Source of the DNA: Candidatus Omnitrophota bacterium
Lineage (GTDB): Bacteria; Omnitrophota; Gorgyraeia; Gygaellales; Profunditerraquicolaceae
Direction: 5' to 3'
Length of the DNA stretch: 32,774 nt
Assembly (NCBI GenBank): GCA_025453445.1
Contig: JALOQJ010000009.1
Span: 1 to 32,774, forward strand
The first letter of the stretch is position 1. Each line of letters starts with the position of its first letter. Under the pieces are notes generated by a model. That model ran no database searches, was not told the DNA's origin, and saw only the letters and a program-made list of their open reading frames with translations. The translations under genes were made by a program, and so were the position numbers. This document shows positions 14,043 to 31,818 of this stretch, one piece after another.

Positions 14043-15533
14043 TTATTTTTTTTCTGCCTTCTTAACTGCAGACAAACCGAGCGTTGCCGCTAAAAATCCC
14101 TTATCAATTTTCAGCGCTTCTTCATAACAATAGCGGGAAATTTTTAAATCACCCTTCTCAAAATAAACCTTACCTAAATTGCACCAAACATGCGGCTGGT
14201 CCTTATTAATCATTAAGTTGATCCAAGAATAAGCGAGCGCCTGCTCAGTCTCCCCCATTGTATAGTAAGTGCCTGCCAAATTATTATAGGCCATGAGACC
14301 ATCGGGAAAATTATTGATATTAGTTTCCCAAAAGGTAATGATATCTTTATATTCTCTGTTACGCTTAATGGTTAAAGTGGCATAAGAAATAATAAATAAA
14401 ACAACTGCCAGCATGGCGATAATTCTTAATACCTTCCTTCCCTGCTGATTTATATTTATAGCATCCCATGCCTTTAAAAATAAATAGGCTAAAATCATAC
14501 AAATACCGGCTGAAGGCAGGTATACATAGCGCTCGGAAACAATATTGCAGACCGGAACGATATTAGAATACGGCAGGTAAGTGATAAAAAACCAGGCAAT
14601 GCCGAAAGATATTGGTTTATGCCGCTTCAGGCATTTAAAAAAAGCAAAAATAGAAATAAAAATAACTCCTAAAGACAAGAAAAGTGCCGGGCTGACTTTA
14701 TTAATATCTGTAGTGTTATAGGCAAAAGGATGATATAACCCGCGCGCCAGAGGCAAATAAATAATTTTCAGGTAATAAACAAGCGCTTTTAGCGTTACGA
14801 TTAAATAGCTTGGCCCCCGGAAATAAAAAATTTTATGCATAAAATTATTCCGGCTAAGAAAAATTGCCCAAAGAAAAATTGCGCAGACAAGCGTTATCGA
14901 TGACAACACCCAGAGGCGTATTTTTAATGGAATTGCATCATTGGCGGATTTTTCCCTGAAAAATAGGTCATAGCTTATGAATATTACCGGCAGCACAATC
15001 GCGGCATTACCGGAAAATAAACCTAAAATACAAAAAAATATAGCTAAAATAAAATTAAAAGCTGTTAGGCAGGGTTTAACATAGAACAACAATGATAAAA
15101 GGAAAAACATAGCGGAGAATACGTAGTGGCCGGCGGAAATCCAACTCACTGCTTCAGTATGAATCGGGTGTACTGCGAAAATCAACGCGGCAAGAAATGC
15201 GAATTGACGGTTTTTAAACAAAACGTTACAAAGAAGATAAAGCAGAATTACGCACCCTGTGTTAAGAAGTACAGAAAAAAGATGGAAATAAAAGGTATTG
15301 GCTCCGGCAATCTGCCAGATAAAAACATAGGACAATTCCCAAAGAACACCTTGTTTAATAGAGAAATATTTAGAAAAATATTCTTTGAGGCTATGGATAC
15401 TATTATCATTTAAAATGGCAGCCTGATCATCAATAAGAAAACCGCCGTGCAGGGAATTGGCATAGATACCGATACTGAGTAATGCCAGTAAAATAATTAA
15501 TATAAAATTTACAGTTTTATCTTTTAACTTCAT
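14043..15533 (-). CDS. Multi-pass GT-C-type membrane protein with C-terminal TPRs
   Basis: A 496-residue protein with about ten to eleven membrane helices. The first extracytoplasmic loop has 'GGFLIDDQAAIL', an acidic D-D pair as in the catalytic loop of GT-C glycosyltransferases; 'FAVHPIHTEAVSWISAGHYVFSAMFFLLSLL' is the pattern seen in TMTC-like and related bacterial TPR glycosyltransferase families. The last 88 residues form about two TPR units (AYNNLAGTYYTMGETEQALAY and VWCNLGKVYFEKGDLKISRYCYEEAL). It sits between the main pilin and the minor pilins, so pilin O-glycosylation is a reasonable but unproven job. Specificity cannot be read from sequence. Confidence 0.72.
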   Translation of the reverse strand: MKLKDKTVNFILIILLALLSIGIYANSLHGGFLIDDQAAILNDNSIHSLKEYFSKYFSIKQGVLWELSYVFIWQIAGANTFYFHLFSVLLNTGCVILLYLLCNVLFKNRQFAFLAALIFAVHPIHTEAVSWISAGHYVFSAMFFLLSLLFYVKPCLTAFNFILAIFFCILGLFSGNAAIVLPVIFISYDLFFREKSANDAIPLKIRLWVLSSITLVCAIFLWAIFLSRNNFMHKIFYFRGPSYLIVTLKALVYYLKIIYLPLARGLYHPFAYNTTDINKVSPALFLSLGVIFISIFAFFKCLKRHKPISFGIAWFFITYLPYSNIVPVCNIVSERYVYLPSAGICMILAYLFLKAWDAININQQGRKVLRIIAMLAVVLFIISYATLTIKRNREYKDIITFWETNINNFPDGLMAYNNLAGTYYTMGETEQALAYSWINLMINKDQPHVWCNLGKVYFEKGDLKISRYCYEEALKIDKGFLAATLGLSAVKKAEKK

Positions 15534-16394: not shown

Positions 16395-17609
16395 TTAACC
16401 CGGCTTGAATAATCTGATTAAATTCCACATCGGCAAAAAGATGGCCAAAGCCATTACCAACACCATAACTGCCAGAACGAAAATAAGTATCGGCTCGATA
16501 TAAGTGCTCAAATTCTTAATCATGTAGCCTGACTCGCGGTCATAGTAATCGGCAACGCTAATCAGCAGTTCATCAACCCTGCCTGTCTGTTCGCCGACAG
16601 CAACCATCTGCACTACTACCGGAGGAAACAGATTGCTAACCTTCATCGGTTCAGACATCCCCCTACCCTGATTAACGCTTTCCTTAATATTCATTACCGC
16701 GCGGGCAATAATCACATTGCCTGAAGACTGAGATACTAAATCTAAAACCTCCAGGATAGGCACCCCGCTTTTCATCAATAAAGCGGTAACCCTTGAAAAA
16801 CGCGACATTACCAACATTGTCATCAACGGCCCGAGCACCGGGACTTTTAATTTCAAATTATCCCAAAGCGGCCGGCCAAAAGTAGAATTAATAAAATAAT
16901 GAAACCCATAAATAATTGCCCCTATTCCGAAAATAAACAAATACCAGAATTTCTGCAAAGCAGAACTCAGAAAAATCAGGATTCTCGTCGGTAAAGGCAG
17001 TGCAGTATTAAACTGGCCGTAGATAGTGCTGAAACGAGGGATAACAAAAGCCACTACAATCAGAAACCCGACGCATAAAACAAAAAATGCCAGAATAGGA
17101 TACCTTGTTGCAGCTTTAATCCGGGCGCGGGTATCAATGTCCTGCTCCAATAAATCAGTCAGCCTTCTCAAAATCTCAACTAAAGACCCGCCTGCTTCTG
17201 CTGCCCGGATCATGCTGACATAAACATTATCAAAAATCTGCGGCTTTTCTTTTAAGCTGGCGGATAAACTCAAGCCCCTGCGGATATCTGCAGCGATTTC
17301 TTCGATTACTACCTTAAAATACTGATTTTTAGTCTGTAAAGCGACTGATTCCAAACCGGATAATAACGGCAGTCCGGCTTTCTGCATTGAATAAAGCTGG
17401 CGGGTAAAGGCATTCAATTCCTCAAGGCTCACCCGCTGAAAAACCGTAAGAAGCTTTCGCCCTTTTGACTGACGCTCCTCATCTATGGCAATCGGAACAT
17501 AACCCATTTCCTGCAGCTTTTTAGCGGCATCTGCTTCGCTTGAAGCTGAGGTTGTGCCGATTACAGCCTTAGAGAATTTATCCCGCGCTTTATATTTAAA
17601 ATTTGGCAT
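16395..17609 (-). CDS. pilC: Type IV pilus / type II secretion inner-membrane platform protein
   Basis: A 404-residue GspF/PilC family protein. Two T2SSF domains (about residues 70-195 and 270-395) each hold a cytoplasmic helical bundle; signatures are 'FTRQLYSMQKAGLPLLSGLE' and 'FSRVTALLMKSGVPILEVLDLV', with 'MIRAAEAGGSLVEIL' and 'MVAVGEQTGRVDELL' as the paired repeats. Three membrane helices are evident near 170-190, 217-236 and 375-398. The short N-terminal NFKYKARD segment binds the ATPase. It forms the rotor-like platform on which PilB extrudes pilin. Genes on both sides agree. Confidence 0.96.
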   Translation of the reverse strand: MPNFKYKARDKFSKAVIGTTSASSEADAAKKLQEMGYVPIAIDEERQSKGRKLLTVFQRVSLEELNAFTRQLYSMQKAGLPLLSGLESVALQTKNQYFKVVIEEIAADIRRGLSLSASLKEKPQIFDNVYVSMIRAAEAGGSLVEILRRLTDLLEQDIDTRARIKAATRYPILAFFVLCVGFLIVVAFVIPRFSTIYGQFNTALPLPTRILIFLSSALQKFWYLFIFGIGAIIYGFHYFINSTFGRPLWDNLKLKVPVLGPLMTMLVMSRFSRVTALLMKSGVPILEVLDLVSQSSGNVIIARAVMNIKESVNQGRGMSEPMKVSNLFPPVVVQMVAVGEQTGRVDELLISVADYYDRESGYMIKNLSTYIEPILIFVLAVMVLVMALAIFLPMWNLIRLFKPG

Positions 17610-17846: not shown

Positions 17847-19526
17847 TTAGATTTCTTCAGTTACCCTTAATATCTCTTCAGCAGTAGTAAGGCCGGTTTT
17901 CACTTTTTCAATCCCATCTTCATATAAAGTGCGCATCCCAAGGCTTATAGCAATTTTTTGAATTTCATTGGCGGATTTTTTCGCAGTGACCATATCCTTT
18001 ACTTCGCTATTCATCGCCAAAAACTCAAAAACACCAATACGGCCGCTGAAACCGGTATTCCTGCATTGCATGCATCCTTCTGCCCGGCCACGGTACAATT
18101 CAGTCCCTTCAGCCAACCCTAGATCCTTAAGCATTTCTTTAGAAGGCGCGTATTTTGCCTTGCATTTTGGACAAATTACACGCACCAGGCGCTGCGCCAA
18201 TACGCCAATTATAGAACTGGCAATCAGATACGGCTCAATGCCCATATCGAGAAGCCGGGTAAGGGCGCTGGGTGCATCATTGGTATGCAGAGTAGAAAAT
18301 ACCAGATGGCCGGTTAAAGAAGCCTGAATAGCAATTTCCGCGGTTTCTTTATCGCGGATTTCACCAACCATAATAATATCCGGATCCTGCCTTAAAATAC
18401 TACGCAGGCCATTGGCAAAAGTAAAACCTGCCTTTGGGTTAACCTGGGTCTGGCGCACCAGAGGAATTTCATATTCTACGGGATCCTCAATAGTAATGAT
18501 ATTTTTTTCAATTGTATTAATTGTCGATAAGGCGGCATACAAAGTCGTAGTCTTTCCCGAGCCTGTCGGCCCGGTGACTAAAATAATCCCATTAGGACGG
18601 CGGATTAATTTATCAAAATCTTTCAGGTCATTGCCGGCAAACCCCAAATCCGGCAAACTCAGTAGCGCTGTTGTTTTGTCTAAAATCCTGATCACCAGGT
18701 TTTCGCCGTTTACCGTGGGAAAAGACGAAACCCTGAGGTCAAGGCTTTTATTTTCCATCTTCAATTGAATCCTGCCGTCCTGTGGATTACGCGTTTCTGA
18801 AATATCCATCTTCGCCATTACTTTTACCCGTGAAGCCAAGGCACTTTGCAGATGCTTAGGCAAAATCTGTGCTTCGTGCAGAATGCCATCAATACGGTAA
18901 CGCACCAACACTTTATCTTCCGCAGGTTCAATATGAATATCAGAAGCCTTTTCCTTCACTGCCTGTGTAATAAGTAAACTCACCAACTTCACCACCGGCG
19001 CATCTTCGGCGATCTCACTTAAAGGCCTATTTTGCTTCAGCCTTGCTTCTAATTTTTCCGGAGTCAGATCTTTAATCAGATCCTGCGCACTACCTACAGC
19101 ACCATAGTATTGATCGATGGCTTTCTGAATCATGGTAGGAACAGCCAATACCGGATCAACGATAGCTACCTTAGCTCTGTTTCTGATTTCATCTATCGCT
19201 TCTATATCATGCGGATCTGCCATTGCCACAGTCAGGCTGTCGCCGATTTTAAATAAAGGCATTGCCTTGAATTTCTTTGCTGTTGCTTCCGGGACAAATT
19301 TAACTACTTCCGCATCAATAAGGTAATCAGTTAAATCAATAAAAGGAACGCCCAAAGCATCAGCTGTTACCTGTGCAATATCTGTTTCGGAAATAAAACC
19401 TAATTTCTCCAGCGCTTTTTCCAGAGTAATCCCGGTTTTAGCAGCCTCTTCTTTTGCCTGATCAAGCTGCTCTCCAGTAATAATACCTTTTGTAATCAAC
19501 AAGTCAATATCCGCTCGTTTATCCAT
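17847..19526 (-). CDS. pilB: Type IV pilus assembly / type II secretion ATPase
   Basis: A 559-residue GspE/PilB ATPase that powers extrusion. N-terminal MshEN-type region (about 1-150), a family fold known in some members to bind cyclic-di-GMP; N2 domain; then RecA-like core with Walker A GPTGSGK325TT, Asp box (ITIEDPVEYEI), Walker B (DPDIIMVGEIRD) and the His box (GHLVFSTLHTNDA). A tetracysteine zinc element (C-P-K-C, then C-M-Q-C) near residues 460-495 is the PilB/GspE hallmark absent from the retraction ATPase PilT. It follows two receiver genes after 12 bp. Confidence 0.97.
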   Translation of the reverse strand: MDKRADIDLLITKGIITGEQLDQAKEEAAKTGITLEKALEKLGFISETDIAQVTADALGVPFIDLTDYLIDAEVVKFVPEATAKKFKAMPLFKIGDSLTVAMADPHDIEAIDEIRNRAKVAIVDPVLAVPTMIQKAIDQYYGAVGSAQDLIKDLTPEKLEARLKQNRPLSEIAEDAPVVKLVSLLITQAVKEKASDIHIEPAEDKVLVRYRIDGILHEAQILPKHLQSALASRVKVMAKMDISETRNPQDGRIQLKMENKSLDLRVSSFPTVNGENLVIRILDKTTALLSLPDLGFAGNDLKDFDKLIRRPNGIILVTGPTGSGKTTTLYAALSTINTIEKNIITIEDPVEYEIPLVRQTQVNPKAGFTFANGLRSILRQDPDIIMVGEIRDKETAEIAIQASLTGHLVFSTLHTNDAPSALTRLLDMGIEPYLIASSIIGVLAQRLVRVICPKCKAKYAPSKEMLKDLGLAEGTELYRGRAEGCMQCRNTGFSGRIGVFEFLAMNSEVKDMVTAKKSANEIQKIAISLGMRTLYEDGIEKVKTGLTTAEEILRVTEEI

Positions 19527-19538
19527 CGCGTAGGCTGC

Positions 19539-19913
19539 CTAATCCTTTCCTAAAAATTCCTGAATTTTATTTACTAATGCTACCGGCTCAAAGGGCTTAA
19601 CAATATAGCCATCTGCGCCGACTTCCTTGCCGGTTGACTGATCAGACTCCTGCGCCCGGGCGCTAAACATAATTATAGGGATTTTTTTATATTTTTCATC
19701 AAATTTCAGCAGACGGCAGACCTTGTAGCCGTCCATCTTAGGGAGCATAATATCCAAAATAATCAGATCCGGGATTTCTTTTCTTGCTTTCTCCAAGCCT
19801 TCCTGGCCATCGTAAGCAGGAATAATTTCGTAGCCAGAAGCTTCCAGCCGCATCTTAACCATCTCTACCAGGTCTTTCTCATCATCAACCAATAGAATTC
19901 TTTTTTTTGCCAT
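19539..19913 (-). CDS. Single-domain response regulator (CheY-like)
   Basis: A 124-residue receiver with no output domain. Acidic pocket D10-D11, phospho-acceptor D54 (LILD-I-M-L-P-K-M-D-G), conserved S84 in place of the usual Thr, and K106 in V-K-P-F. All residues needed for phosphotransfer are present. The ATG has a GGAGGG site upstream and overlaps the end of the preceding receiver gene by 29 bp. Being directly upstream of pilB, it probably relays signals from the adjacent kinases to the pilus motor by protein contact. Confidence 0.94.
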   Translation of the reverse strand: MAKKRILLVDDEKDLVEMVKMRLEASGYEIIPAYDGQEGLEKARKEIPDLIILDIMLPKMDGYKVCRLLKFDEKYKKIPIIMFSARAQESDQSTGKEVGADGYIVKPFEPVALVNKIQEFLGKD

Positions 19914-20298
19914 CTTTGATACCCTCCAATAAAGTAATCACATTTTTAATTTCTCTGTCCAGGTCTTTGGTTTTAAAAATAAACCCCGTGGCATTCAAGC
20001 CCCTTGCTGCCTTAAAACGTTCCTGATCAAACTTATCCACTGCGGAAAATACTGTAATCATAAATACTGGCAGTTCCGCATCATGCTCCCGTATAATCCT
20101 CAGCACTTCCAATCCGTCCATCTCCGGCATCAGGATATCCAAAAACACAGCATCAGGCCTATCGTTTTTAATTTTCTCCAGACCTTCTTTTCCGCTTAAT
20201 GCTGTCGCAACAGAAAAATTATTTGCCTCCAGCCTGATTTGAAAGAGTTTCAAAAAATCCGGCTCGTCATCAATAACCAATATTTTCTTTTTTTCCAT
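19885..20298 (-). CDS. Single-domain response regulator, second receiver
   Basis: A 137-residue receiver-only protein with D10-D11 and phospho-acceptor D54 (VFLD-I-L-M-P-E-M-D-G). The signalling loop is unusual: the K-P pair of most receivers reads F-K-T (FIFKTKD), and an extra insertion (VDKFDQERFKAARG) precedes it. It begins 2 nt after the stop of the large kinase, with AGAGGG upstream, so the kinase is its likely partner. It may be one step of a phosphorelay or bind a target directly. Confidence 0.9.
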   Translation of the reverse strand: MEKKKILVIDDEPDFLKLFQIRLEANNFSVATALSGKEGLEKIKNDRPDAVFLDILMPEMDGLEVLRIIREHDAELPVFMITVFSAVDKFDQERFKAARGLNATGFIFKTKDLDREIKNVITLLEGIKDGKKKNSIG

Positions 20299-20300
20299 CT

Positions 20301-23300
20301 TTAGGCCCTCTTTTCAGATGAAGCGCTTCTTAAATTATTCATCAGCTCTTCTGCGGTTTTTGCCTCATCAGGATAAGTGCTACAGCTGAATTTAAGCTGA
20401 ATTTTATCTTTGAATTGAGAGGCTACCAAATAACCTTCTATCGCAGCTTCTAGCCTGCCTATTACTCTTAAGGCACTTTCTTTATTGCAGTCATTCAGAA
20501 AAAGAATAATTTCTCCGCTATCCTGCAGGACATTGTCGCCTGCGCGGCGAAAATTATCTCTAATTAATTCCTCTCCATCTTGCAGTATTTTACGCAATTT
20601 TTCCGCTGGCAATGTTTGTTTTAAAGCGGTAAAGCCTGGAATAGCTACCAAGACAAGCGAAAAACGGGAATTATTTTCCTGAGCGACTTTTATCCCCTGC
20701 TTAATATAATCCTTTGCTAATGTAGCATAGGTGTATTGCGGTATAGTAAAAGTAAACTTGGTACCCTGATTTTCTTTACTCTCCAACTCCATCTTACCGC
20801 CGTGTAACTCAATGATAGCTTTTGCAATAGATAACCCTAAGCCTGTGCCTTTTTCACCCGGGCCATCCCTGCGGCCAAACTGTTGGAACTTATCGAATAC
20901 CTTACTTAAATCTTCCTGCGCGATACCCACACCCGTATCCTGTACTATGCATTCTACAAAATCATTTTTTGCCAGTGCTGAAATTTCCACAGATCCCTGT
21001 TTAGTAAATTTAATCGCGTTATCCAGTAAATTGCCCAAGACCTGGGTGGTTTTATCCGCGTCCACATAAATATTAATGCCCTGCGCAGGCAGATTAACCT
21101 TAAACTGCAGGCCTTTTTCTTTAGCACGGAAACTAAACAAAGAAACAAGGCTGTTAATCATATCCGTAAGATTAACCGACTCCCTCTTGATCTCCATTTT
21201 ACCAGCTTCAATTTTGGAAATATCCAACAATTCATTAATAATCCGCGCTAATCTGTCAATATTATTTTTGGCAGACCCAAGAATCTGGCCCTGCTTTTCG
21301 TTGATTGTTCCGGGGATCCCCTCTAAAACTAAACTTACCCCTTCTTTAATAATTGATAGCGGCGTCCTCAATTCATGGGAAACCGTACTAATAAATTCAT
21401 CCTTCAGATGTTCTAATTTTTTATTCTCGCTGATATCGCGGGCAATAGTAGAAGCACCAATGATGTTGCCGAATTCATCTTTCATCGGAGACATAGTCAG
21501 AGAAACATCGATTTTCCTGCCGTCTTTTCTTACGCGCACGGTTTCGTAATGATTGATACTTTCTCCTCGCTTAATTTTTTCCATGATCATAGGGAGATCA
21601 CTGATGCCTCCCGGAAGAAGCAACATAGAAACCGGCTTACCTATAGCTTCTTTAGCTGTGTAGCCATAGATTTTTTCCGCACCAATGTTCCAACTGATAA
21701 TCATTCCTTCGAGGTTCTCACTAATAATCGCATCATCAGAAGAATCAACGATTGCTGCCAAACGCTGGCGCAGGCCTTCAGATTTTTTGATTGCTGAAAT
21801 ATCCCGGGCAATATGCACGCAACCGGTAATCTCTTTTTTATCATTTAGAATCGGAGAAGTAGTCACTAAAAGCGGTATTCCCACAGCCTGATCATAAACT
21901 TCTTCGGTATGGGCAAGGTTATCGTTTTTAGTTGCCTCAAACGGACAATCCTTCCATGGAGTTTTTGTTTTATGAATTAGCTCAAAACACTTTTTACCAA
22001 TGACATTCTCTGCCTTCAACTTCATAGTATCAAGAAAAGCCTTATTGGCCTTTATAATAATATTATTCCGGTCATGGATAAAAACCATATCTGCAATAGA
22101 TTCGAATGTCCTCACCCATTCTTCATTCGCCTGCCTGATTGCTAGTTCCTTATTCTTCTGCTCAGTAATATCTTCTACAAAAATCAGCGCTTTTTTCCTG
22201 CCTTCTTCTTCAAAAGGCATACCTGTCATATTTCTTACGCTTTTCTTGCCGCTATAGTAGGAAGCATATTCAAGGTTTTCCATAAAAAATGCCTCTCCTG
22301 CCAAAACCGCCTTGAACTTTTTATCCAAGCCTTTCTCTTTATAGGTAGGCAATGTAAAAACATCTAATTCTTTAAACTGTTCATAAGTGTTCCCGGAAAT
22401 GGCCAGCATTGCCGGATTAACATAATCAATACCGCCGTTTTCATTGGCCACAAAAACCCCAAAAGGCGCCTTTTCCAGAATAATGCGATTCATCTGATAT
22501 GCCCGTTTAATTGCTTCCTCAGCTATTTTTATTTTGGTAATATCGCGAAAAACTAAAATTACTCCAATAATTCCGCCGTCTTTATCCAGAATTGGCGCGC
22601 CGCTATCATCAATTGCGATTTCCTTGCCGTCTTTAGTTACAAGAAGTATGTGATTACCTAGATCAACAATTCCACGGGTTTCCAAAACTTTAGTTACCGG
22701 ATTTTTACAGCGTTGCCGGTTTTCTCCACTGATAATATGGAAAACTTCTTCTAAGGGCTTACCAACAGCATCTTTCTCTGTATGGCCGGTAAGATCCTCT
22801 GCTACTTTATTAATAATGGTAATTTTTCCCTGCTGGTCAGTAACGATTACTCCATCACCAATGCTGCGCAGGGTAACAAAAAGCCTCTCTTTTTCTTCAG
22901 CAACTGCAGCTTCTGCGCGTTTACGCTCGGTAATTTCACGGCCCTCAGGAATTAAAAGTACGACTTTTCCTGCGTCATCCTTAACCGGCTTAAGCGAAAA
23001 ATCCACATAATGGATGCTTCCGTCAGCCGCAGGATGAGTTGCCTCAAAGCGGATAAATTCCCCCTTAGCGGCAGCTTTGATTCCAGCGCGGAGTTTATCC
23101 TGCAGTTCTTTGGAATGTTTCCACCAAGGCCCTTCCCAAAACGGTTTTCCTAAAACATCTTTTTCTTTTATTCCGGAAAACTCAATTGCAGTCCGATTTA
23201 CCTCAATGAGTACCCCCTCAACAGTCATCAAGCCGATGAATTGGAATGTTTGATCAAAGATAGCCCGGAATTTTCTTTCGCTCTCCTGCAGTTTTTCTTC

Positions 23301-24566
23301 TGCGCGTTTACGCTCTGAGATTTCTTTATTCAGGCTATCTATAGACGCAGTGCTTTGTTTTAAATCCTCCGCCATCTGATTAAAAGAATATGCTAACTGT
23401 TCGATTTCATCACCGGTCCTGATATCTACTTTGTAATCTAGGTTACCCTTACCTATAACCTCCACCCCTTCACGGAGTTTTCTTATCGGCCGGATAAATA
23501 TCCCGCCGAAAATAAACCCTACCGGCAAAAGCATTGCCAAAAGCATAAATAAAATTACAACTAGCCTTAAAATTAGGGTATTTAAAGGCGCGAAAACTTC
23601 CTGCAGGTTCTGGCGCACAACTACCCGCCATTTAATCCCCTCATCCAGAAGGCTGGGATATGTTATATCAGCAAAAGTGACAAACTGAAATCCCTCATGC
23701 CCGGGGATCAGCACGTGCTTTGTAATAAACCACCCCCGCCCGTTATTTAATAGCTTTTGGAAATCTTCACTGTTAAACAGTTTTACTGTCAGCGGTTCGG
23801 TATTACTATGGGCGATAATATACCCTGTTTCATTAACAAGGAGCGCATCTCCGGTCTGGCCGACCCTGAAATCTTCCAATACCTTAAAGAAATGTTTTAT
23901 TTCTGCTATCGCCTTGCAAACGCCGATTACCTGCTTATCGTAATCCAGAATAGGCATAGCAAAGGTAACGCCCAGCATATTAGTTGATTCATCAAACTCA
24001 ATATCTCCGATAAAAACCTTTCCTTTGCCTCCGGCAAAAGCACGCTGCCACCACTTTTCATCTGCCTGATAAAAATCACTAGTTTTCCCTGATGTAGCGA
24101 CTAAGCCGCCGAATTTATCGGTAATAAACATCTCTTTTAATATATCGTCAGTATCAACAAGCTTTTTCAACCTGATACTCATATAACTATTCAGATAATC
24201 TTTAATCAGCGGGTCGTCTTCTACGGCGGGAATCCATCTTTTATCCATATCCAGAAGATACTTCTGAATATTTTTTTCCGGCGTGTTTTTATATCTGGCA
24301 TTACCCAGTATAACTGCTTCTTGCAATGAGGTATTGGTAAGGTGAACTGTTAATTTATTTACTTCCCTATTGAATGTTCCGTCAATACTCGATGCCATCA
24401 ATTGCGCCATCTGGATATGTTCGCGGGCAATGGTATCTTTTATTATCCGGCTTCCCCAAAAATAACCCAACACAAGCCCGATAACCGAAGTAGAAAAAGT
24501 AATCAGAAAAAACGATAGGGTAATTTTTAACCTGATACCCATTCTAGGTTTGGCGGGTTTTTGCAT
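20301..24566 (-). CDS. Membrane-bound multi-PAS histidine kinase with C-terminal GGDEF-like remnant
   Basis: A 1421-residue sensor. In order: membrane helix (about 14-38); periplasmic double-Cache-like sensor (45-330); second helix (332-358); HAMP (360-410); coiled coil; five PAS domains (about 430-1055), each ending in an 'RDIT/REIT'-type strand; HisKA with phospho-acceptor H1064 (SHELRTP); HATPase with N box (LLDNAIKF), DTGVGI and GTGLGLSIAKAI. The last 130 residues resemble a GGDEF domain in spacing (LVLVAIPGF..., FRRAGDNVLQDSGEIILFL..., STYPDEAKTAEELM) but read D1349-S-G-E-I where GGDEF should be, so cyclase activity is unlikely. A promoter-like sequence is 6 nt before the ATG. Confidence 0.93.
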   Translation of the reverse strand: MQKPAKPRMGIRLKITLSFFLITFSTSVIGLVLGYFWGSRIIKDTIAREHIQMAQLMASSIDGTFNREVNKLTVHLTNTSLQEAVILGNARYKNTPEKNIQKYLLDMDKRWIPAVEDDPLIKDYLNSYMSIRLKKLVDTDDILKEMFITDKFGGLVATSGKTSDFYQADEKWWQRAFAGGKGKVFIGDIEFDESTNMLGVTFAMPILDYDKQVIGVCKAIAEIKHFFKVLEDFRVGQTGDALLVNETGYIIAHSNTEPLTVKLFNSEDFQKLLNNGRGWFITKHVLIPGHEGFQFVTFADITYPSLLDEGIKWRVVVRQNLQEVFAPLNTLILRLVVILFMLLAMLLPVGFIFGGIFIRPIRKLREGVEVIGKGNLDYKVDIRTGDEIEQLAYSFNQMAEDLKQSTASIDSLNKEISERKRAEEKLQESERKFRAIFDQTFQFIGLMTVEGVLIEVNRTAIEFSGIKEKDVLGKPFWEGPWWKHSKELQDKLRAGIKAAAKGEFIRFEATHPAADGSIHYVDFSLKPVKDDAGKVVLLIPEGREITERKRAEAAVAEEKERLFVTLRSIGDGVIVTDQQGKITIINKVAEDLTGHTEKDAVGKPLEEVFHIISGENRQRCKNPVTKVLETRGIVDLGNHILLVTKDGKEIAIDDSGAPILDKDGGIIGVILVFRDITKIKIAEEAIKRAYQMNRIILEKAPFGVFVANENGGIDYVNPAMLAISGNTYEQFKELDVFTLPTYKEKGLDKKFKAVLAGEAFFMENLEYASYYSGKKSVRNMTGMPFEEEGRKKALIFVEDITEQKNKELAIRQANEEWVRTFESIADMVFIHDRNNIIIKANKAFLDTMKLKAENVIGKKCFELIHKTKTPWKDCPFEATKNDNLAHTEEVYDQAVGIPLLVTTSPILNDKKEITGCVHIARDISAIKKSEGLRQRLAAIVDSSDDAIISENLEGMIISWNIGAEKIYGYTAKEAIGKPVSMLLLPGGISDLPMIMEKIKRGESINHYETVRVRKDGRKIDVSLTMSPMKDEFGNIIGASTIARDISENKKLEHLKDEFISTVSHELRTPLSIIKEGVSLVLEGIPGTINEKQGQILGSAKNNIDRLARIINELLDISKIEAGKMEIKRESVNLTDMINSLVSLFSFRAKEKGLQFKVNLPAQGINIYVDADKTTQVLGNLLDNAIKFTKQGSVEISALAKNDFVECIVQDTGVGIAQEDLSKVFDKFQQFGRRDGPGEKGTGLGLSIAKAIIELHGGKMELESKENQGTKFTFTIPQYTYATLAKDYIKQGIKVAQENNSRFSLVLVAIPGFTALKQTLPAEKLRKILQDGEELIRDNFRRAGDNVLQDSGEIILFLNDCNKESALRVIGRLEAAIEGYLVASQFKDKIQLKFSCSTYPDEAKTAEELMNNLRSASSEKRA

Positions 24567-24572
24567 GCCTTA

Positions 24573-24600
24573 ATTATAACATAACCGATAGGTTAGACAA
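24573..24600 (-). promoter_or_regulatory. Candidate promoter for the large kinase-pilB operon
   Basis: On the minus strand TTGTCT (24600-24595), a 16-nt spacer and TATAAT (24578-24573), with TGT just before the -10 giving an extended -10. Only 6 nt separate the hexamer from the ATG at 24566, so the start site would coincide with the start codon. The kinase with PilZ ends at 24603, so this promoter would let the downstream kinase, receivers and pil genes be expressed independently. Confidence 0.55.
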
Positions 24601-24602
24601 CA

Positions 24603-26510
24603 TCAAATCTCTGCGGAGATGGATTTAATGAAACGAGAAATAGTCTGTTTCTCTTTACGGCTCAAATTAATAAACTCAACGCCTATTTTATAATTATTGC
24701 CCCCGGTAGGGCTAAGCCATGCCACGCGGCCCTTAAGATGCAAGGGCCTGCTCTCTTTTTTTAGCTCAAGGCTGATATCTACTTCTGCGTCGGTCTTAAG
24801 CATTTTATCCAGGATAAAACAAACTCCACCCTGCGAAATATCTACGGTTTTAGAAAGGTACGTTTTTTCTCCGGCAGGAATAACTTCTATATTGAGTTTA
24901 TATAAAAACCTTTTAAAATGCCGTATCTCATGGCCGATAAATATTTTTTTGATGCGCAGATTAGCCGGCAGTAACTCGCTTCCCTGTAGCGGCTGTTGAG
25001 GATAGGCAAATAATCCGATATTAATAAAAACGTTCTCTGCGCTTACTTGCGTAAAATATTCTTTAAGGCGCGACTTAAACAATGCACACACTTTCAGGAT
25101 TTCTTTTTCGGAAACTTCAGGAAAAATCACCCCTGCTTCCCCGCCTTTGGCATCCAGCGAAACAATTTCAGCCGGCTCCTTGCCTGAGTAAGAAAATTCT
25201 CCGGCGGTTGCGCTGATAATAGGCTTTATCTCTTTAAATAACCGTGCAGGCGAAATACCGATTGTACTTTTAAGCAGTTTATAATTTACAATTAACAAAT
25301 TAACTAAGTACAATGAAATGCCTTTATCCAATAAAGCATTAATGCGCAGGCGGGCATTTTTCTCAAGCGCCTTCAGCGCGTAAGAACAAGACAAGGTAAA
25401 ATAAAACTTACTCCCCACTCCTGATTGCGATTCTGCCCAGATTTCTCCACCGTGAATTTGCACTATGCCTCTGGCAATAGAAAGCCCCAAACCCAGGCCT
25501 TCTTTTTCCAGATTTGGCCTGTGAGAAACCTGCACGAATTTTTGAAATAATTTTTCCAGGTCTGCTTTAGCAATGCCGATTCCTGTATCAATTACCCCTA
25601 TCCTTACCTTGTCTTGCAGAACCTTAACTTCAAGCCTGATTTTGCCGTTCTCTTCTGTAAATTTAATCGCGTTATTTAAAAGATTGGTCACCACCCGGCT
25701 GATTTTTTCCGCATCAAGAAAAAGATTAATCCGTTCAGCAGACAAGGCATATTCAAGGCGTACACCTTTTTCCTGCGCTTTCTTTTTGAAGAATTCCGAA
25801 GACTCGCTTAACAAATCATTAAGGTTAACCAATGAATAATGCAGTTTTAATTTTCCGCTTTCAATGCGCGAGATATCCAGCAGATCCTCGATAATACCTT
25901 TAAGATTATTGATATGTAACGCTGCCGTTATCAATAATTGTCTTTGCTTGTCATTTATGGGACCTGCGATTTCATCTGATAGTAAAGCCACTGCTTCTTT
26001 GATAATTGCCAAAGGTGTCCTTAATTCGTGGGAAACTACGGAGACAAATTCGGATTTTAGTTTATTCAACTCTTCCAGGGAATGCAGTTGTTTCTCGATT
26101 TGTTCTTTTTCCCTGCTAAAACGCTCCAGCTGCATACGCCGGGTGATATCACGGGTAATCCCGATCAAACCGATAATTTTTCCTTTTGCGTCAAAGCGCG
26201 GGATTTTAGTAGTTGAAACATAATTATCCACCCCGTCAGAACGGGTAGCGCGCTCGATTTTATCAATAATCGCTTTGCCGGTTTTTAAAACCTGCACATC
26301 ATCTTTTGCCATCAGCGCTGCGCGTTCTTTAGGGAAGAAATCAAAATCGCTTTTTCCGGCTACCTGCTCCGGCTTCAAGCCCAAGCCTTTAGCGTGCGCC
26401 TGGTTAACCATAATTAATTTACCTTTTGTATCTTTGAAGTAGATTACATCGGGAGTATACGCCATTAAGTCGCGCAGGAGATTGGCAGGTTTATTGGTTT
26501 GGGTTTTCAT
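24603..26510 (-). CDS. Cytoplasmic PAS histidine kinase with GGDEF-like remnant and C-terminal PilZ domain
   Basis: A 635-residue soluble kinase with no membrane helix. PAS domain (about 10-130, with VIYFKDTKGKLIMVN), HisKA with H161 (SHELRTP), HATPase (NLLNNAIKF, DTGIGI, GLGLGLSIARGI; up to about 375), then a degenerate GGDEF-like region with G456-G-E-A-G where GGDEF is expected, then PilZ (528-635). The PilZ domain has the cyclic-di-GMP contacts R530-x-x-x-R534 and D557-x-S559-x-x-G562. It may therefore be a kinase tuned by cyclic-di-GMP. It has no paired receiver beside it, but two lie downstream in the same direction. The ATG lacks a clear Shine-Dalgarno sequence. Confidence 0.9.
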   Translation of the reverse strand: MKTQTNKPANLLRDLMAYTPDVIYFKDTKGKLIMVNQAHAKGLGLKPEQVAGKSDFDFFPKERAALMAKDDVQVLKTGKAIIDKIERATRSDGVDNYVSTTKIPRFDAKGKIIGLIGITRDITRRMQLERFSREKEQIEKQLHSLEELNKLKSEFVSVVSHELRTPLAIIKEAVALLSDEIAGPINDKQRQLLITAALHINNLKGIIEDLLDISRIESGKLKLHYSLVNLNDLLSESSEFFKKKAQEKGVRLEYALSAERINLFLDAEKISRVVTNLLNNAIKFTEENGKIRLEVKVLQDKVRIGVIDTGIGIAKADLEKLFQKFVQVSHRPNLEKEGLGLGLSIARGIVQIHGGEIWAESQSGVGSKFYFTLSCSYALKALEKNARLRINALLDKGISLYLVNLLIVNYKLLKSTIGISPARLFKEIKPIISATAGEFSYSGKEPAEIVSLDAKGGEAGVIFPEVSEKEILKVCALFKSRLKEYFTQVSAENVFINIGLFAYPQQPLQGSELLPANLRIKKIFIGHEIRHFKRFLYKLNIEVIPAGEKTYLSKTVDISQGGVCFILDKMLKTDAEVDISLELKKESRPLHLKGRVAWLSPTGGNNYKIGVEFINLSRKEKQTISRFIKSISAEI

Positions 26511-26569: not shown

Positions 26570-26647
26570 TGGTCGGGGCGACAGGACTTGAACCTGTGGC
26601 CTCAGCGTCCCGAACGCTGCGCTCTAGCCAAACTGAGCCACGCCCCG
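26570..26647 (-). tRNA. tRNA-Pro (anticodon CGG), CCA encoded
   Basis: Reading the minus strand, all arms fold: acceptor CGGGGCG with CGCCCCG, D stem GCTC/GAGC, anticodon stem CAGCG/CGCTG around loop TTCGGGA (anticodon CGG, G37 next to it), T stem ACAGG/CCTGT around loop TTCAAGT, discriminator A and the encoded CCA. C1-G72 with A73 is the bacterial proline identity. The body without CCA covers 26573-26647. Confidence 0.97.
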
Positions 26648-31662: not shown

Positions 31663-31672
31663 TTAAAAATAT

Positions 31673-31809
31673 TAACCTTCTTTCATCTGGACTTTCCCCT
31701 TTTTTGAAGGGACCATCGGCTCTGGATTTTACCAGATCTGCTTGCGACTTTACGCCGCAGCTCGCGGGCTTAACCGCCGGTTAGGAATCACACCTTACCC
31801 CGAAGATTA
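31673..31809 (-). promoter_or_regulatory. FMN riboswitch (RFN element)
   Basis: The minus strand has the conserved FMN aptamer elements in order: P1 strand AATCTTC with GAAGGTT at the other end; TCTTCGGGG; ATTCCTAACCGGCGGT; AGCCCGCGAGC; a variable hairpin; CTGGTAAAATCCAG with AGCCGATGGT; AAAGTCCAGATGAAAGAAGG. It starts at about the predicted transcription start. With FMN bound, P1 should hold the 5' strand and free the following terminator to form, shutting off ribBA-ribH-nusB-PHP-ribD-ribE. Confidence 0.97.
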
Positions 31810-31818
31810 ACTGCTGCT

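Follow-up and report, generated by a model that had tools for sequence, protein, structure and literature searches.

A PilZ-bearing histidine kinase with a predicted eroded GGDEF domain in a pilus- or secretion-type gene cluster of Omnitrophota

The stretch of DNA analyzed here (contig JALOQJ010000009.1, 32,774 nucleotides, referred to as the window) belongs to a Candidatus Omnitrophota genome assembly of 1.29 Mb in 57 contigs, and the relatives of the locus described below are Candidatus Omnitrophota by name. Two histidine kinases lie on its minus strand at the head of a gene cluster transcribed in the order kinase A (HKA, 635 amino acids; 24603..26510), kinase B (HKB, 1421 amino acids; 20301..24566), the regulators RR1 (137 amino acids; 19885..20298) and RR2 (124 amino acids; 19539..19913), a PilB/GspE-type assembly ATPase (17847..19526) and a PilC/GspF homologue (16395-17609), followed by a pilin, several prepilin-like genes and PilM/N-, O-, and P-like genes. 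Both regulators were found by Pfam to consist of a receiver domain only (Response_reg for RR1). The spacing from kinase A through kinase B, RR1, and RR2 to the ATPase is 36, 2, −29, and 12 bp on the same strand, the negative value being the overlap of RR1 with RR2, and these gaps make a single transcript from kinase A through the ATPase likely. An earlier note, made from the sequence alone, had placed a PilZ-carrying kinase next to pilB. The two genes do share a strand, in a run whose gaps are no more than 36 bp, but kinase B and two receiver-only regulators intervene.

Kinase A was assigned the order PAS-HisKA-HATPase-degenerate GGDEF-PilZ using Pfam, an orthologue alignment, and AlphaFold2 models (all coordinates on the minus strand). 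The PAS domain (residues 15-126, 26133..26468; Pfam PAS_4 / PAS_9) is followed by HisKA (residues 152-219, 25854..26057), HATPase_c (residues 266-373, 25392..25715), a putative eroded GGDEF domain (residues 378-510, 24981..25379), and a PilZ domain (residues 527-630, 24621..24932). The phospho-acceptor histidine of the H-box and the N, G1, and G2 boxes are all present in both kinases. Neither kinase was found to contain a receiver domain by Pfam, and no transmembrane part was evident in kinase A, its PilZ domain, RR1, or RR2. The GG[D/E]EF active-site motif of diguanylate cyclases is absent from both: kinase A carries the nonconserved GGEAG at residues 456-460 (25131..25145), in the slot of the GGDEF hairpin, and kinase B carries DSGEI at residues 1349-1353. 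The earlier note had given all of these motif positions correctly, and both open reading frames, on the minus strand, lie where it had put them.

The PilZ domain matched Pfam with 65 bits and holds the motifs RxxxR (RHFKR, residues 530-534) and DxSxxG (DISQGG, residues 557-562), as the earlier note had read them. Conservation was assessed in kinase A and 38 relatives (39 sequences). The membership motifs RxxxR and (D/N)xSxxG were present in every sequence, and R530, R534, D557, S559, and G562, together with the kinase residue H161, were 100% conserved (39/39). Loss of the PilZ arginines in orthologues, named beforehand as evidence against the proposal, was therefore not seen. The GGDEF slot has fared differently: its second glycine is kept in 79% of the family and the glutamate in 53%, the slot having otherwise drifted, and RxxD, the motif of the GGDEF inhibitory site (I-site), is missing from the 26 residues before the hairpin in all 39 sequences. 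The full-length AlphaFold2 model (predicted local distance difference test, pLDDT, 72.8; predicted template modeling score 0.50), from which domain packing was not inferred, shows a low-confidence linker at residues 508-531, ahead of the PilZ domain at the far C terminus.

The ancestry of the kinase A middle domain was studied by comparison of profiles, since single-sequence Pfam gave nearly no match: no domain was matched in residues 376-525 of kinase A, and only one of 30 family members touched GGDEF (E 0.046). PHROGs returned no useful match for either kinase tail domain. Three alignments were compared with hhalign: A2, with 30 sequences of the kinase A middle domain; A3, with 29 kinase B tails; and A4, with seven GGDEF domains that the genome has outside the kinases. 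The kinase B tails aligned to the genome's GGDEF domains at 99% (E 3e-18), while the kinase A middle domain aligned to the kinase B tails at 96.5% (E 8e-10, 115 columns, score 59.5) and to the GGDEF domains at 93% (E 3e-7, 58 columns, score 46.0). Controls stayed well below these scores: with 60 column-scrambled versions of A2 for each comparison, the top score was 19.1 for A3 and 18.2 for A4, while reversed A2 did not exceed 22.6, nor a PilZ alignment 14.6. The silence of Pfam had prompted the idea that the middle domain is unrelated to GGDEF; the scrambled and reversed controls ruled this out.

An AlphaFold2 model of kinase A residues 378-635 (pLDDT 78, 13 sequences) showed the order of elements found in GGDEF domains, with GGEAG in the turn of the hairpin, although residues 132-154 of the model, where the last GGDEF elements would come, were poorly predicted. 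Searched with Foldseek, this model matched the GGDEF domain of Thermotoga maritima (4urq/4urg; for 4urq, E 1.6e-3, template modeling score 0.54 on the target) and, much more strongly, the c-di-GMP (cyclic-di-GMP)-bound PilZ domain of Alg44 (E 2.5e-7, score 0.8). In addition, three relatives (L135, L137, and L090) are intermediate proteins in which a recognizable degenerate GGDEF domain is joined to a PilZ domain. Judged by profile comparison with controls, predicted fold, and these intermediates, the kinase A middle domain is an eroded GGDEF domain. The GGDEF-like remnants proposed for both kinases by the earlier note were thus upheld, for kinase B by a Pfam match over the cut-off and for kinase A solely from profile and fold; the lack of a GGDEF fold in predicted structures, which it had named as counting against the idea, is not the case, as the kinase A model and the match to 4urq support the fold.

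Kinase B has the order dCache-HAMP-5xPAS-HisKA-HATPase-degenerate GGDEF by Pfam. Its GGDEF tail (residues 1285-1415, 20322..20714, minus strand), which also matched solved diguanylate cyclases, scored 26.6 bits against a Pfam cut-off of 23.8, and 28 of the 29 tail family members matched the same model. A motif census found RxxD at the position of the inhibitory site in 18/29 kinase-B-type tails, including kinase B itself (RAGD, residues 1341-1344), an assignment that could be off by one residue, as the hhalign pairing of this segment is shifted by that much. Kinase B may still sense c-di-GMP through its GGDEF inhibitory site. Among the kinase-B-type proteins examined, all those with sufficient flanking sequence have the degenerate GGDEF domain directly behind HisKA-HATPase. 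The genome encodes a third kinase with such a tail, L021 (G000:C25:44416-44805), directly followed by an RR2-like receiver-only regulator (G000:C25:44828-45190, 112 bits).

Kinase A was present in 40 of the 384 Omnitrophota genomes sampled, in single copy in all but one. A profile search of genome contigs with a 7-sequence kinase A alignment was silent outside Omnitrophota, which is weak evidence since it recovered only 13 loci while 40 genomes of the phylum are known to have kinase A, and a search of plasmids found nothing. One of the 13 loci (L134, LNGD01000043.1), on a contig assigned to the archaeon Ca. Methanofastidiosum, carries regulator, kinase A, regulator, ATPase, and pilC; since these are bacterial-type pilus genes in the order of Omnitrophota, it is probably a mis-binned bacterial contig. 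In a tree of the HisKA-HATPase region, the kinase A proteins formed one group (100/100) that joined three proteins with degenerate GGDEF plus PilZ (98/92). A fourth protein of that makeup, L136, whose second PilZ motif is degraded, was placed elsewhere, with L021 (100/99). Holding all PilZ carriers together was mildly rejected by the approximately unbiased test (p 0.031), a test chosen after the tree was seen. The simplest reading of this tree is that PilZ was added twice to kinases of the HisKA-HATPase-degenerate GGDEF type, the alternative being one gain followed by loss. Kinases of the HisKA-HATPase-degenerate GGDEF type extend across the phylum Omnitrophota.

The neighborhood of kinase A was compared across 38 loci. 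An RR2 orthologue, defined by a score of at least 130 bits, which no other regulator of this genome reaches, was no more than 3 kb from kinase A in half of them (19/38), in many cases adjoining it. A PilB/GspE ATPase lay within 9 kb in 12/38 loci, many of the contigs being short, so that the association with a pilus-type ATPase claimed by the earlier note recurs in relatives of the locus. A rough binomial estimate for this linkage is ~1e-8 or less, assuming one to three such genes per genome and ignoring shared ancestry; bearing on that assumption, this genome has seven T2SSE-family matches over the cut-off, four of them full-length. The window's order of kinase A, kinase B, RR1, RR2, ATPase, and pilC is found again in G301 (L075), and a genome from a distant Omnitrophota family (G020, L090:7994-16645) has kinase-degenerate GGDEF-PilZ, regulator, kinase-degenerate GGDEF, regulator, ATPase, pilC, and pilin. 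Two loci have a 245-amino-acid protein with two apparent receiver domains directly upstream of kinase A (L132:6861-7598 and L134:5582-6319).

The ATPase matched T2SSE and MshEN in Pfam, and its best solved-structure matches were PilF/PilB. With NCBIfam it scored 630.6 for GspE, just at the cut-off of 630.25, and 628.6 for PilB, below the cut-off of 675.65. In view of these scores the machine is, from its sequence, of the type IV pilus (T4P)/type II secretion system (T2SS) type and not certainly a pilus; the gene called pilB in the earlier note could be gspE. The MshEN c-di-GMP motif, defined as two copies of 24 residues (RLGxx...Q; PMC5013675), is degenerate in the window and in most related loci: the two copies in the ATPase match 6/11 and 5/11 key positions, RLG and Q are absent, and the NCBIfam c-di-GMP_motif model was narrowly missed (36.7 bits, cut-off 38). 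As key MshEN residues are missing, the adjacent ATPase probably senses c-di-GMP poorly itself, and a separate c-di-GMP sensor at the locus thereby becomes more plausible, though not proven. In the genome as a whole ten GGDEF matches were counted. Two belong to the degenerate kinase tails that Pfam recognizes and one is partial; of the other seven, a GG[D/E]EF- or AGDEF-type motif is present in six and absent from L018. There were also six HD_5 (HD-GYP-like) and eleven PilZ matches, and no EAL domain was found in the genome.

The domain order, the intact kinase and PilZ residues, the GGDEF ancestry, the order of events on the tree, and the recurrent linkage to RR2 and an ATPase stand at the level of sequence; ligand binding, its coupling to the kinase, RR2 as substrate, and the ATPase as target are what we infer. 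In the proposed mechanism, kinase A would be a cytoplasmic histidine kinase of a T4P/T2SS-type machine, from a family with a catalytically dead GGDEF domain right behind HATPase. Ancestral members probably sensed c-di-GMP through the inhibitory site (RxxD) of that domain; on the branch leading to kinase A, a PilZ domain would have been appended and have taken over ligand binding, the GGDEF domain then eroding to a structural coupling piece. With c-di-GMP bound to PilZ, kinase A would change its balance between kinase and phosphatase activity, and thereby the phosphorylation of the receiver-only RR2, perhaps of RR1. Since the regulator has no DNA-binding domain, it would work through contact with other proteins, either the assembly ATPase or the partners of that ATPase. 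We consider it somewhat probable that kinase A is such a c-di-GMP-responsive kinase, with output to RR2 (perhaps RR1) tuned through PilZ and acting on the PilB/GspE machine.

Several points weigh against this reading. The partner could be RR1 rather than RR2, the ATPase could be GspE, and about two-thirds of the kinase A loci have no ATPase within reach, many of those contigs ending early. Further, in SgmT, a Myxococcus xanthus kinase with a degenerate GGDEF domain, c-di-GMP changed localization and not autophosphorylation or phosphotransfer (PMC3509222), a caution that applies directly to the earlier note's idea of c-di-GMP setting kinase output. It could be, therefore, that c-di-GMP on PilZ sets the position of kinase A, for example at the pole or the pilus motor, and not its activity. 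Binding was required for clustering of SgmT and left both reactions unaffected (PMC3509222), and the PilZ domain of kinase A sits at the far C terminus behind the low-confidence linker. Sequence does not separate positioning from allosteric control, but in all family members examined the degenerate GGDEF domain strictly follows HATPase after a short gap, a hint that the catalytic domain is held in a fixed contact, and control of position alone is regarded as the less likely explanation.

More doubtful still is that the PilZ domain serves as a docking module for the PilB/GspE ATPase, with no need of c-di-GMP. In Xanthomonas, the canonical T4P PilZ protein does join PilB and FimX in one complex (PMC8389850, PMC10333796), and the kinase A locus is linked to an ATPase; however, that canonical PilZ does not bind c-di-GMP (PMC10333796), whereas the ligand motif is invariant in the kinase A family, which makes docking alone improbable. 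That kinases A and B are ordinary two-component kinases whose GGDEF and PilZ tails are inert fusions at this locus would fit the lost GGDEF catalytic motifs and the absence of kinase A from most Omnitrophota genomes, yet it is very improbable: the ligand residues are invariant even among deep relatives, the order and the partner genes are conserved, and PilZ was probably added twice to one kinase type.

Kinases that bind c-di-GMP and kinases with degenerate GGDEF domains are already known, and a c-di-GMP-responsive kinase A would stand among them. The closest described case is SgmT (GAF-HK-REC-degenerate GGDEF), a histidine kinase that likewise carries a degenerate GGDEF domain in its C-terminal part, and a c-di-GMP receptor tied to T4P-dependent behavior (PMC3509222). 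SgmT differs in having a receiver between kinase and GGDEF, in binding its ligand at the GGDEF inhibitory site, and in lacking PilZ, whereas kinase A has neither receiver nor inhibitory site and does have PilZ. RavS of Xanthomonas binds c-di-GMP on its catalytic/ATP-binding domain and has no appended PilZ. Its output and that of CckA of Caulobacter, both histidine kinases, are set by c-di-GMP (PMC12564702, PMC6707612), and CckA too binds the ligand on the catalytic/ATP-binding domain itself (PMC12564702), with no appended PilZ. HapZ and SagS of Pseudomonas aeruginosa also pair a PilZ domain with a histidine kinase, whose phosphotransfer the PilZ domain gates (PMC10333796). HapZ, however, is a separate protein acting in trans, while the PilZ domain of kinase A lies within the kinase polypeptide. 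FimX-PilZ-PilB of Xanthomonas/Pseudomonas and MshE/PilB with MshEN bring a T4P or mannose-sensitive hemagglutinin (MSHA) assembly ATPase under c-di-GMP through a degenerate GGDEF, PilZ, or MshEN domain; there the sensor is the ATPase or a nonkinase adaptor, whereas here the candidate sensor is the kinase and the ATPase motif is degenerate. Tlp1 is a chemoreceptor whose C-terminal PilZ domain is a c-di-GMP input to a phosphorylation pathway. In the chemoreceptor Cbp1, such a domain has that same part (PMC6454048), although chemoreceptors of this kind signal to CheA and have no kinase activity of their own.

The earlier note knew of no described system with this layout. SgmT already has a C-terminal degenerate GGDEF domain that binds c-di-GMP (PMC3509222), so the statement holds in part: in the open-access literature, no description was found of a covalent kinase-PilZ fusion, nor of a kinase-degenerate GGDEF-PilZ fusion beside RR2 and a PilB/GspE ATPase or of the graded series of intermediates. 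Only tentatively can the wider picture be drawn, in which a phylum-wide kinase class would have a dead GGDEF domain fixed in its core, c-di-GMP would be coupled to phosphorylation first through that domain's own inhibitory site and later, on the branch leading to kinase A, through an added PilZ that took its place, and receiver-only regulators would give direct, c-di-GMP-gated phospho-control of a pilus/secretion ATPase. If true, c-di-GMP and two-component phosphorylation, two main bacterial signaling currencies, would meet in one polypeptide at a pilus/secretion locus, in a phylum without isolates. The putative evolutionary series, from a degenerate GGDEF domain with inhibitory site through GGDEF plus PilZ to PilZ with an eroded GGDEF, would illustrate how ligand sensing may pass between domains. 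The switching of pili in Omnitrophota is of interest because the phylum has members predicted to be predators or parasites, and these use type 4a pili (PMC10066038).

Inside the pilus-type cluster, a membrane protein with C-terminal TPR repeats (TMTC-like; window 14043-15533), kept in two related loci (L054 and L067), is possibly a pilin glycosyltransferase. Upstream of kinase A, a tRNA gene (26573-26647, minus strand) lies between ribE and kinase A, and a flavin mononucleotide (FMN) riboswitch (94 bits; window 31671-31811) precedes ribBA in the gene run ribBA-ribH-nusB-PHP-ribD-ribE. At the other end of the window, positions 115-768 encode a HEPN_AbiU2-type protein (61 bits, Pfam), possibly a defense or toxin-antitoxin gene.

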